Assembly: GCA_904374385.1 (NCBI GenBank) | Contig: CAJFGA010000008.1 | Span: 1-45,100 of the forward strand | From: an uncultured Clostridia bacterium | GTDB taxonomy: Bacteria > Bacillota > Clostridia > Christensenellales > Borkfalkiaceae | Length of the DNA: 45,100 bases | Direction: 5' to 3' | Part shown: positions 29,142 to 35,263 of the stretch, one piece after another | Layout of the letters: each line of letters starts with the position of its first letter | Position numbering within the stretch: position 1 is the stretch's first letter | Notes under the pieces: generated by a model | Told to the model about the DNA's origin: nothing | Database searches by the model: none | What the model saw: the letters and a program-made list of their open reading frames with translations, nothing else | Made by a program: the position numbers and the translations under genes

Positions 29142-29924
29142 GTGTTTGATCCTTCCGCGCAGCTTCTCGCGTTCAACAGCGAGGAACTGCAAGAAAAAGT
29201 TTTTCCGAAAAATGTCATACAGATCGGTTCTTTTGCCGTCAACGACAGCGTGATCTCCGGCTTTATCGTCGTCATCGTGCTGCTGATCGTCGCGCTCATC
29301 CTCAGGCTTACCATCATCCGCAAATGGAAAACGACCCCCACGGGCGGACAGATGTTTCTCGAATGGCTGGTGAGCTTTTTCGATAAGAGTGCGGACGAGA
29401 TGACCGAAAAGTACAGCGGTTTGATGGGGCCGTATACGTTGGGAGCCGCCGCGTACATCTGTTGCGGCGTGCTCATCGAATTGTTCGGCTTGCGTCCCGC
29501 CATTGCAGACGTATGCGCCTGTCTCGCACTTGCGCTGTGCTCGTTTTTGTTCATCCATACGTTGGGTTTTGTCAAAAACAAGCAGCGGCGTCTGCTGCAT
29601 TATGTAAATCCCATCAATATCATCACAGATCTCGCGGTGCCCGTTTCAATGACTTTCCGTCTGTTCGGCAGCATCTTGAGCGGCATGGTGATCATGGATC
29701 TCATCTATATTGTCGTGGAAAGCATTTGGTATTTTGGACTTCCCGTCGTGATCCCCGCGATCCTGACGCCGATCTTTACCTTGTTCCACGCATTGATTCA
29801 ATCGTATGTATTTGCGTCGCTGACGCTGACGTTCGTTTCGGAAGCGATCGAAACCAGGCCAAAGAAGCCGAAAAAAAAGCGAAAGCAGAAAACCGCGTCC
29901 CCGGCGGCGGGCGCGGCGGAATAA
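29142..29924 (+). CDS. atpB: F1Fo ATP synthase subunit a
   Basis: VPVSMTFRLFGSILSG and ALIQSYVFASLTLTFVSEA; start reassigned to GTG at 29142 preceded by GGAGG. Confidence 0.93.
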   Translation: MFDPSAQLLAFNSEELQEKVFPKNVIQIGSFAVNDSVISGFIVVIVLLIVALILRLTIIRKWKTTPTGGQMFLEWLVSFFDKSADEMTEKYSGLMGPYTLGAAAYICCGVLIELFGLRPAIADVCACLALALCSFLFIHTLGFVKNKQRRLLHYVNPINIITDLAVPVSMTFRLFGSILSGMVIMDLIYIVVESIWYFGLPVVIPAILTPIFTLFHALIQSYVFASLTLTFVSEAIETRPKKPKKKRKQKTASPAAGAAE

Positions 29925-29962
29925 ATAACTCTGTTCAACAGGATATCTTACGGAGGTAGGAC

Positions 29963-30217
29963 ATGGAACTTTTAGTCACTATGATGGTAAACTTGCTCGT
30001 CGATATGGGCCCGGCGATCGGCGCGGGCATTGCGGCGCTGACCGGTCTCGGCGCGGGCGTCGGCATGGGCATTGCAACGGGCAAAGCGGTGGAAGCGACC
30101 GCGCGTCAGCCCGAAGCGGTCGGCAAGATCAGAACGATGCTTTTGTTGGGGCTCGCCTTTGCGGAAACGACGGCGATCTACGGGCTTCTGATCAGTATTC
30201 TCCTTATCTTTATGTAA
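29963..30217 (+). CDS. atpE: F1Fo ATP synthase subunit c
   Basis: [60 protein letters not shown]. Confidence 0.97.
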
Positions 30218-30251
30218 AATTTTATGAAAAAAACTGTGGCAAAGGTGCGCA

Positions 30252-30803
30252 ATGTTTGATTTTATGGCAGATACGATGATGCTGTCGGCGTTCTCGGATA
30301 TGCTCGATAGAATGGGCATCACATGGTCGAGCATCCTTCTCCATTTAATTGCTTTGGTCATTCTTACGGTCGGGCTTTATCTTCTCTTGTTCAAGCCGGT
30401 CAAAAAGATGATCCGCGAACGGCAGGAAAAGGTGAAGAAGATCGAAAAGGAGAACGCCGACCTCAACGAGGAGGTCAAAGAACTGAAAAACAGTTCTGAA
30501 AAGGTGCTCTCCGAAGCGAAAAAAGAGGCTGCCGCCATGCACGAAAGTGCTGTTAAGGTCGCCAATCAAAAGGCAAATGACATTTTAAGCGAGGCGAAGG
30601 CAAAAGCCAAGGCGCTCATCGACCGCACGGAAACGGAAATGGATGAAGAGCGCAAAAAGCTGCAGGCGGACGTGGAGAAACAAATTGCGGACGTCTCGCT
30701 GCTCGTAGCCGAAAAGGTGATCGGGCGGGATATCTCCAAGGAGGACAACCGCCGCCTCATCGAAGCGAGCATCAAAGAGTGGAGCGAAAAGGAAAATGGC
30801 TAA
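30252..30803 (+). CDS. atpF: F1Fo ATP synthase subunit b
   Basis: Single N-terminal TM then long charged coiled coil ending LVAEKVIGRDISKEDNRRLIEASIKEW. Confidence 0.94.
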   Translation: MFDFMADTMMLSAFSDMLDRMGITWSSILLHLIALVILTVGLYLLLFKPVKKMIRERQEKVKKIEKENADLNEEVKELKNSSEKVLSEAKKEAAAMHESAVKVANQKANDILSEAKAKAKALIDRTETEMDEERKKLQADVEKQIADVSLLVAEKVIGRDISKEDNRRLIEASIKEWSEKENG

Positions 30804-31014
30804 GGAAGAATTGGTGGCAAAAGTCGTCGTATCCGAAAAGCCGGACGACGGCATTCTGCGTTTGGTCGCGGATTTTATCAAACAACGCGGCTGTTATCGG
30901 GCAGAATATGTCATCGACCCCGATATCCTCGGTGGTATCGTCATACGCATCGGCGACAAGGTTTACGACGGCTCCGTCAGAAGCCGCCTCGAAACCGTCC
31001 GCCAGTCATTGTAA
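30796..31014 (+). CDS. atpH: F1Fo ATP synthase subunit delta, C-terminal domain only (72 aa)
   Basis: EYVIDPDILGGIVIRIGDKVYDGSVRSRLETVRQSL matches the AtpH C-terminus; N-terminal OSCP helical domain absent. Confidence 0.88.
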   Translation: MAKEELVAKVVVSEKPDDGILRLVADFIKQRGCYRAEYVIDPDILGGIVIRIGDKVYDGSVRSRLETVRQSL

Positions 31015-31026
31015 AGAGAGAACATT

Positions 31027-32553
31027 ATGATCGATTTGAACGAAATCGGCCGCGAATTGAAAGAAAAGATCTCCCGTGTTTCCGATCATAGTCAAGAAAG
31101 GTCTACGGGCAAGATCGTCTATTCGGGCGACGGCATTATAAAAGTCGCAGGGCTTCCCGGTGTGCAATATAACGAATTGCTGGAAGTCCGGGGCGGTTAC
31201 CAGGCGCTGGCGCTCAACTTGGAGCATGACAGCGTGGGTGCCGTCCTTTTTTCGGGCGAAGATAAAGTACGTTTCGGCGATTATGTCTATTCTACCGGCA
31301 AAACGGTGCAGATGCAGGTAGGGGAAGAGCTGCTCGGAAGGGTCGTCGATCCCTTGGGAGCCGCGCTCGACGGTCTCGGCGAAATCGCGACCGGCAAGAC
31401 GCGCCCCGTCGAATTTCCCGCTCCCGCCATCATGGACAGGGGCAAAGTCAACAAACCGCTGCAGACGGGTATCCTCGCCATCGACAGCATGATCCCGATC
31501 GGCAGAGGGCAGCGCGAACTGATCATCGGGGACAGGCAGACGGGCAAAACCGCCATTGCGGTCGATACCATCCTCAACCAAAAGGGCGAAAACGTCATCT
31601 GCATCTATGTTTCGATCGGGCAGAAGGCTTCATCGCTCGCCAAAACGGTCAACACCCTCCGCACGGGCGGGGCGATGGAGTATACCTGCGTCGTATGCTC
31701 CACGGCGGACGACGCGGTCCCCATGCAGTATATCGCGCCGTACAGCGGCTGTGCCTTGGCGGAATATTTCATGTATCAGGGCAAAGACGTGCTTATTGTC
31801 TATGACGATTTGTCCAAACACGCCGTTGCCTACCGCGCGATGAGCCTGCTTTTAAAACGTCCGGCCGGCCGCGAGGCATACCCGGGCGACGTATTCTATC
31901 TGCATTCCCGCCTGCTGGAGCGCGCGGCAAAACTATCCGAGGCAAAGGGCGGCGGCTCTATCACGGCGCTTCCCATCGTCGAAACGCTTGCGGGCGATAT
32001 CTCGGCTTACATCCCGACCAACGTCATTTCCATCACCGACGGGCAGATCTATCTCGAAAGCGAGCTGTTCAACAGCGGCGTGCGTCCCGCGGTCAACGTG
32101 GGGCTTTCCGTGTCCCGCGTGGGCGGAAGCGCACAGCGCAAGGCGATCCGCCAGATCTCCGGCCAGCTGCGTATCAACCTTGCACAGTACAGAGAACTCG
32201 CCATCTTTATGCAATTCGGATCCGATCTCGATAACGAAACGCAAAAGACGCTCAGCCGCGGCGCCAAGCTCACGGATACCCTAAAACAGCGTCAGTATCT
32301 CAATTATACGGTCAAAGAGATGATCGTGCTTTTGGTCGTTTCCCAGAGCGACCTGATCGACGATATCCCCGCCAAAAAGGTGACCGAATTTAACGAAGGG
32401 CTGCTCGATTATCTGCGCATCAACCAAAGCGATCTTCTCGGAGCCATCGCCCCGGATACCGCCGTCACCGACGAATTGCGGGAAAAGATCCTTGCGGCGG
32501 CAAAAGAATTTATCGATCTTACCCTCGGAGACGAGGAGGAAAACCATGTCTGA
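31027..32553 (+). CDS. atpA: F1Fo ATP synthase subunit alpha
   Basis: GDRQTGKTAIAVDTILNQ, PIGRGQRELIIGD, YDDLSKHAVAYR, NVGLSVSRVGGSAQ. Confidence 0.98.
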   Translation: MIDLNEIGRELKEKISRVSDHSQERSTGKIVYSGDGIIKVAGLPGVQYNELLEVRGGYQALALNLEHDSVGAVLFSGEDKVRFGDYVYSTGKTVQMQVGEELLGRVVDPLGAALDGLGEIATGKTRPVEFPAPAIMDRGKVNKPLQTGILAIDSMIPIGRGQRELIIGDRQTGKTAIAVDTILNQKGENVICIYVSIGQKASSLAKTVNTLRTGGAMEYTCVVCSTADDAVPMQYIAPYSGCALAEYFMYQGKDVLIVYDDLSKHAVAYRAMSLLLKRPAGREAYPGDVFYLHSRLLERAAKLSEAKGGGSITALPIVETLAGDISAYIPTNVISITDGQIYLESELFNSGVRPAVNVGLSVSRVGGSAQRKAIRQISGQLRINLAQYRELAIFMQFGSDLDNETQKTLSRGAKLTDTLKQRQYLNYTVKEMIVLLVVSQSDLIDDIPAKKVTEFNEGLLDYLRINQSDLLGAIAPDTAVTDELREKILAAAKEFIDLTLGDEEENHV

Positions 32554-33409
32554 TACCGCCGAGATCAAGCATCGCATCAAGAGCGTGAGCGACACCCATC
32601 AGATCACCAAGGCGATGGAACTGATCTCCGTATCCAAGATGCGCAAGGCGATGGAAAAACAGGCGGTCAACGCGGCGTATTTCAACAGCGTTCGTTCGAC
32701 GATCAAGGATATCATGCGGCACAGTACCGATATCCGCCACAAATACCTCGTGCATCGGCCGAACGATCGTACGGCGTACATCGTCATTGCGGGTGATAAA
32801 GGGCTGGCGGGTGCTTTCAACAGCAACGTACTGAATATGGCGTGGGAACACATGCAGACCCGCCCCGTGCACTACGTCGTCACGATCGGGCAGATGGCGC
32901 GCGCTTTTTTCGAAAACAAGCACCAACCGGTCGACCTTGAATTTACGCACGCCGTCACCAATCCCACGCTGCATGACGCGCGCGGCATCATGCGCGACAT
33001 TCTCGACTTATACGACAGAAATTTGATGGATGAAGTGATCGTCGTCTTTACGCGCATGTATTCCACCGCTTCCCAAAAGCCGGAGATGGTGCGCCTACTT
33101 CCCATCGTCGAATCAGATATTCCCGGAGAGGAAACTTCCTCCTTCACCGGAGAAATACTTTACGATCCTTCTCCGAAGGAAGTATTGAACGTTCTCGTGC
33201 CGCAGTATCTCGTCGGCATGATCTATTCGGTGCTTATCCATTCTTTTGCGAGCGAACATGCTTCGCGCATGTTGGCGATGTCTAACGCGAACAAGAATGC
33301 GGATAAAATGCTGGAGGCGCTCAATCTCGAATACAACCGTTCCCGCCAGAGCGCGATCACAACCGAGATTTTGGATCTCGTGTCGGGCCGCTTTGCGGAC
33401 GGAAGATGA
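32546..33409 (+). CDS. atpG: F1Fo ATP synthase subunit gamma
   Basis: IKHRIKSVSDTHQITKAMELISVSKMRKA, IAGDKGLAGAFNSNV, SEHASRMLAMSNANKNADKML. Confidence 0.96.
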   Translation: MSDTAEIKHRIKSVSDTHQITKAMELISVSKMRKAMEKQAVNAAYFNSVRSTIKDIMRHSTDIRHKYLVHRPNDRTAYIVIAGDKGLAGAFNSNVLNMAWEHMQTRPVHYVVTIGQMARAFFENKHQPVDLEFTHAVTNPTLHDARGIMRDILDLYDRNLMDEVIVVFTRMYSTASQKPEMVRLLPIVESDIPGEETSSFTGEILYDPSPKEVLNVLVPQYLVGMIYSVLIHSFASEHASRMLAMSNANKNADKMLEALNLEYNRSRQSAITTEILDLVSGRFADGR

Positions 33410-33418
33410 CGCATATAG

Positions 33419-34819
<1,401 letters not shown>

Positions 34820-34855
34820 ATTTTTGCACTATGCCGCAGGGCAAAGGAGGGCGCA

Positions 34856-35263
34856 ATGAATAAATTTTATCTTGAAATTATCACGCCCGAAAAGGTTTTT
34901 TTCCGCGGTGAGGCGGAAAGCGTCAATATCCCTTCCATCGGCGGGGCGTGTACGATCATGGCAGGGCATCAGCCCATGGTGTTCGCTACCGAGCCGGGTA
35001 CCATCCGTATCACGGCGGACGGCGAAACGCGCGAAGCCTTTATGAGCGAGGGATTTATCGAGGTGCGCCCCGACGAAACGATCGCCTTTGCGCAGGCGGT
35101 GGAATGGCCGGAGGATATCGACGAGCGCCGCGCGCAGGAGGCAAAAGAACGCGCGGAAGAGATGGTGCGCCGCAACCGCAGCGCGGCCGAATATCAGCTC
35201 AACCGCCTCGCGCTGCAGAGGGCGTTTGCGCGCCTGCGCGTCAAACACCGCGGGCACGACTGA
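34856..35263 (+). CDS. atpC: F1Fo ATP synthase subunit epsilon
   Basis: FYLEIITPEKVFFRGEAESVNIPSIGGACTIMAGHQPMV, C-terminal helices. Confidence 0.95.
   Translation: MNKFYLEIITPEKVFFRGEAESVNIPSIGGACTIMAGHQPMVFATEPGTIRITADGETREAFMSEGFIEVRPDETIAFAQAVEWPEDIDERRAQEAKERAEEMVRRNRSAAEYQLNRLALQRAFARLRVKHRGHD

Follow-up and report, generated by a model that had tools for sequence, protein, structure and literature searches.

The rule for ATP synthases has been one outer stalk per enzyme, with the N-terminal domain (NTD) of subunit δ named as its enforcer. Ueno et al. (2025) reasoned that the NTD, positioned on the threefold axis, restricts the enzyme to one stalk (PMC12229609). In their PS3 construct δ residues 2–104 were removed and the C-terminal domain (CTD, residues 105–178) was joined to α, giving a δ(dN)-α enzyme that carries b2 stalks and a-subunits in up to three copies each, with a and b doubled, has an H+/ATP ratio of 5.8 versus 3.0, and synthesizes ATP at low pmf (PMC12229609). 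According to the same published design, one α N-terminus already touches the C-terminal region of δ, and the engineers worried that an unfused CTD might bind unstably (PMC12229609). They named Acidaminococcus fermentans, UniProt G4Q3K6 and A0A1I2C5T3 as natural, experimentally unverified δ(dN)-α cases (PMC12229609).

Other known enzymes also depart from the usual arrangement. The Chloroflexus aurantiacus ATP synthase (PDB 9itj–9itu) is a native precedent for two δ chains per enzyme, judged by PDB titles and chain counts (12 δ to 18 α chains over six entries). In the mycobacterial enzyme (PDB 7jg5), δ is covalently attached to another stator subunit, b, in a chain of 445 aa with its CTD match at 407–440.

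The window, the 45,100-nucleotide stretch of DNA analysed here (positions 1 to 45,100 of contig CAJFGA010000008.1 from an uncultured Clostridia bacterium of the family Borkfalkiaceae, order Christensenellales), contains one complete F1Fo operon in the order atpB-E-F-H-A-G-D-C (29142–35263, forward strand). All eight F-type subunit genes (a, c, b, δ, α, γ, β and ε) have Pfam matches and are intact. The genes for a (atpB, 29142–29924, GTG start at 29142 assumed; ATP-synt_A, 3.7e-28), c (atpE, 29963–30217; ATP-synt_C, 5.8e-19) and b (atpF, 30252–30803, 183 aa and normal in length; ATP-synt_B, 9.8e-18) are single and of ordinary size. The 3′ end of atpF overlaps the start of atpH (30796–31014), a 72-aa ORF matching Pfam OSCP (1.3e-12), by 8 nt, and the TAA of atpH is followed after 12 nt by atpA (α, 31027–32553), in which the P-loop reads GDRQTGKT. 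The operon continues with atpG (γ, 32546–33409; ATP-synt, 4.1e-86), atpD (β, 33419–34819; ATP-synt_ab, 6.2e-74) and atpC (ε, 34856–35263; ATP-synt_DE_N, 3.5e-20, and ATP-synt_DE, 7.3e-10). The α subunit falls below the cut-offs of two other ATPase families: it scores 437 bits against a cut-off of 600 for a Mycoplasma F1-like model (MSC_0619/MMOB1660 type), the second model of this type gives 337 bits against 520, and the alternate (N-type) alt_F1F0 model gives α 609.7 bits against 750.5.

The genome of the window encodes Rnf, and no V/A-type ATPase was found in it, so F1Fo is its sole rotary ATPase and probably runs on the weak gradient made by Rnf. Rnf is likewise encoded in relatives with full-length δ; a low-gradient argument therefore fails to separate the δ types and is context rather than proof. 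RnfD of the window's genome and of one genus relative (L251, 1469–3271, and L253, 1191–3347, both reverse strand) bears a C-terminal extension of 280–400 aa without a Pfam match, and RnfD frames of other families in the order are of ordinary size (310–365 aa).

The 72-aa ORF matches only positions 100–172 of the 172-position OSCP profile, and its closest solved structure is residues 112–175 of Bacillus PS3 δ (PDB 6n2y_I, 7e-9). Modelled with AlphaFold (mean pLDDT 76), the protein shows the δ/OSCP CTD's succession of elements, strand-helix-strand-strand-strand-helix, and its top 46 Foldseek matches are all δ/OSCP C-terminal domains (best E 4.5e-6, TM 0.81); the engineered PS3 chain, PDB 9jc1, is among the matches. 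The ORF scores below the cut-off of every NCBIfam δ model. It thus shares CTD sequence and fold with canonical bacterial δ and mitochondrial OSCP, and has the b-binding domain, but is without the NTD of about 105 residues, the helical domain that caps α3β3. The original prediction that this ORF is the C-terminal end of AtpH, and that just 72 aa lie between atpF and atpA, is upheld by the profile, structure and coordinate data alike. The cut lies at nearly the same boundary as in the engineered PS3 protein, but the CTD of the window and its genus is a separate ORF, not covalently fused to α. The Chloroflexus δ (157 aa), unlike that of the window, keeps residues before the CTD, the match falling at chain residues 105–152.

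The short gene is conserved and under purifying selection. None of the 28 copies examined from 24 genomes of the genus is disrupted; they are 72–88 aa long, with upstream starts possible in some. Median pairwise dN/dS within the genus is 0.32 for δ, 0.19 for b and 0.10 for α, rough figures because dS is close to saturation. The window almost certainly encodes a reduced but functional δ.

It had also been suggested that the missing domain is encoded elsewhere, an idea that our searches do not bear out. In the window's genome, a metagenome-type draft that is 89.6% complete in 101 contigs, the 72-aa ORF is the sole OSCP match, with no second OSCP and no NTD. An NTD-only profile built from 20 full-length δ proteins gave zero matches in this genome and, across 18 genus relatives, a best E of 0.0057 over 46 residues, which is chance level; several of the relatives searched are more than 92% complete. 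Positive-control genomes with full-length δ gave 1e-31 to 1e-37.

The short form extends well beyond the window. Within the genus, 34 of 36 genomes have a significant OSCP match, in every case to the C-terminal part only. Across the order, 297 evenly sampled genomes yielded 147 δ loci in 146 genomes; the other 151 have no OSCP match. Classified by profile span and open-frame length, the loci comprise 24 full-length δ, 36 stand-alone CTDs, 83 of fused size and 4 others, where fused size means a CTD lying in a frame of at least 540 aa, so that the fused counts lean partly on frame length. Fusion of the CTD to α in such large frames was confirmed ORF by ORF in more than 25 loci, and by Pfam in the loci scanned. 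This joining is the same as in the engineered multi-stalk PS3 enzyme (PMC12229609), many times over. Across the class, full-length δ is commonest and fused frames occur in a few other families. Two named loci come from Clostridia MAGs: L186 is a stand-alone CTD that falls within a stand-alone clade of the order, and L188 encodes a b′-CTD-α chain.

Rarer architectures are also present. Another genus of the window's family has tandem CTD-CTD-α fusions (L122, 3519–5561, and L123, 3822–5852, both reverse strand). In family f11, membrane-anchored b′, the δ CTD and full α form a single polypeptide of 746–755 aa (L118, 2430–4670, forward; L121, 3592–5835, reverse; L126, 3840–6104, reverse; L188, 3371–5638, forward), so that each α additionally bears half a stalk. 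We had considered three stalks of single b chains for these enzymes and dropped this in favour of b/b′ pairs, because a profile search and the ORF list place a separate b gene of 142–143 aa directly upstream (L118, L121 and L126). The AlphaFold model of the b′-CTD-α chain has 9jc1_I as its best Foldseek match, but at 10.7 Å rmsd over the two-domain span, and hence does not predict the placement of the CTD on α. The natural cases described in PMC12229609, whose likeness to the relatives in NTD loss and CTD-α fusion we take from the description there, are three fusions only; stand-alone CTDs, tandem and b′-CTD-α forms and the order-wide spread go unmentioned there.

Several loci carry more of δ. 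One stand-alone protein consists of two δ CTDs (L143, 3040–3435, forward; 131 aa), and another is a full δ followed by a second CTD (L140, 3071–3856, forward; 261 aa). A full-length or nearly full δ is fused to α in an Erysipelotrichaceae MAG (L223, 3662–5734) and in Ca. Colivicinus equi (L244, 3680–5737), and δ with most or all of its length is likewise fused to α in L137–L139, which have a longer partial δ, and in L216. An F1 built from such chains would have three NTDs competing for a single place on the axis.

In an unrooted α+β tree of 78 loci, made by a quick search without bootstrap, most full-δ enzymes form one cluster, and stand-alone and fused enzymes are intermixed across the remainder. 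The tree implies 11–12 label changes per label, and its well-supported (starred) branches force at least six interchanges between stand-alone and fused forms, which suggests that the two are equivalent. The window's genus is a stand-alone clade whose nearest relatives include fused forms (families f18 and f32). A stand-alone CTD, L142, sits within the full-δ cluster beside L140, indicating that the NTD was lost more than once. Transfer between lineages is also likely, because the tree places the tandem-fused genus far from the window's genus, and because the genomes G071 and G312 each have one full-δ and one fused operon.

Changes in α accompany those in δ. In full-δ enzymes the α N-terminus is nearly invariant (EISxIIKxQIxxY). 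For pairs at 60–65% core identity, the identity of the α N-terminal segment is 0.50 among full-δ enzymes but 0.17 among stand-alone and 0.15 among fused enzymes, a comparison of related sequences with one clade-rich full-δ set. NTD-less enzymes mostly retain the N-terminal helix with an unconstrained sequence, and at least one fused enzyme, L036, has lost it. Such relaxation is what loss of a partner that binds the α N-termini predicts. In the window's α the helix (residues 1–26, MIDLNEIGRELKEKISRVSDHSQERS) is present and the EISxIIKxQI dock motif is missing; the earlier statement that AtpA keeps an N-terminus of normal length therefore holds, with the qualification that the conserved docking sequence is gone. 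The relaxed dock, together with a short form that is lineage-wide in the genus and recurs through the order, supports the original prediction of a different stator connection in this lineage and answers its question of whether relatives share the short δ.

Copy number gives a further constraint. Nine genomes with a fused α have a single α gene (G067, G090, G292, G282, G331, G239, G053, G056 and G058), and two of these genomes (G067 and G090) are closed. With the fused gene as the only source of α, every F1 carries three δ CTDs, unless the chain is cleaved after synthesis.

We propose that the window encodes a working F1Fo whose δ has been cut in evolution to the CTD that holds the b stalk. The free CTD would occupy the place of a fused CTD, on the α N-terminal region, as the repeated replacement of free and fused forms by one another suggests; we consider it likely that the window's CTD is held there. 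With the NTD gone from the threefold axis, more than one α could bear a CTD, and several CTDs could bind two or three b2 stalks with their a-subunits. The extra stalks and a-subunits would move more ions per ATP and permit operation at a lower gradient.

The most serious alternative is a minimal single-stalk enzyme in which the NTD is simply dispensable and one CTD on one α holds one b2 at an ordinary ion/ATP ratio. It draws on the same features that count against several stalks in the window, where no covalent bond joins the CTD to α and one copy per enzyme is possible, and on the single, normal-size a, b and c genes; since one α N-terminus contacts the δ C-terminal region in the known enzyme (PMC12229609), a CTD alone could hold the stalk. 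Such an arrangement is inapplicable to the single-α fused relatives, where three CTDs are obligatory, and the repeated swapping of fused and unfused forms suggests that the window shares their arrangement; nothing that remains in the operon breaks the threefold symmetry. We regard a single stalk as possible, although on the unlikely side.

The remaining alternatives fare worse. A cap supplied by another protein, unrelated or very divergent and encoded elsewhere, would suit the normal-length amphipathic N-terminal helix of α, and very divergent helical bundles can escape sequence searches; this is improbable given an NTD profile that is blank in the window's genome and at chance level in the genus against controls of 1e-31 or better, a dock sequence under no constraint, and a fused relative that has dispensed with the helix entirely. 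Read-through of the δ stop, which would turn the window's δ and α (30796–31027) into a fusion, is suggested by the shared frame of the two genes, whose starts are 231 nt apart and which are separated by one TAA and four codons (12 nt). We rejected it as very improbable because relatives do not keep this register: of 20 stand-alone junctions parsed, 4 preserve the frame, no more than chance, the gaps range from −8 to +59 nt, and each of the three stop codons occurs, so that the in-frame junction of the window looks like a chance event. The draft, metagenome-type state of the assembly might point to an assembly error, a pseudogene or a decaying operon, but the relatives refute this and leave it a negligible chance: the same form recurs in the genus and across families, every atpH copy examined is intact and constrained, and the eight operon genes are intact.

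The likeliest reading of the locus thus remains a CTD-only δ in which loss of the NTD lifts the one-stalk limit, with a probability of roughly 0.55. For its parts our expectations differ. More than one stalk is rather likely in the fused relatives and an even call in the unfused enzyme of the window. The broader proposition, in which the NTD was lost repeatedly, the CTD was kept free, fused to α, in tandem or within b′-CTD-α chains, the ion/ATP ratio was multiplied for work at a very low ion-motive force, and the unfused enzymes are multi-stalk without a covalent tie, we advance tentatively and at slightly less than even odds.

The engineering work of 2025 broke the one-stalk rule and guessed at one natural genus; this order adds dozens of cases, both unfused and fused, making natural multi-stalk ATP synthases directly testable. 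Relatives with full-length δ are available for comparison, and the relaxed α dock provides a sequence trace that follows loss of the NTD. The unfused form of the window, a step that the engineers avoided, opens the question of whether a covalent link is required in the first place. If these enzymes are multi-stalk, the ion cost of ATP in these cells would be set by the number of a-subunits, and not by ring size alone.
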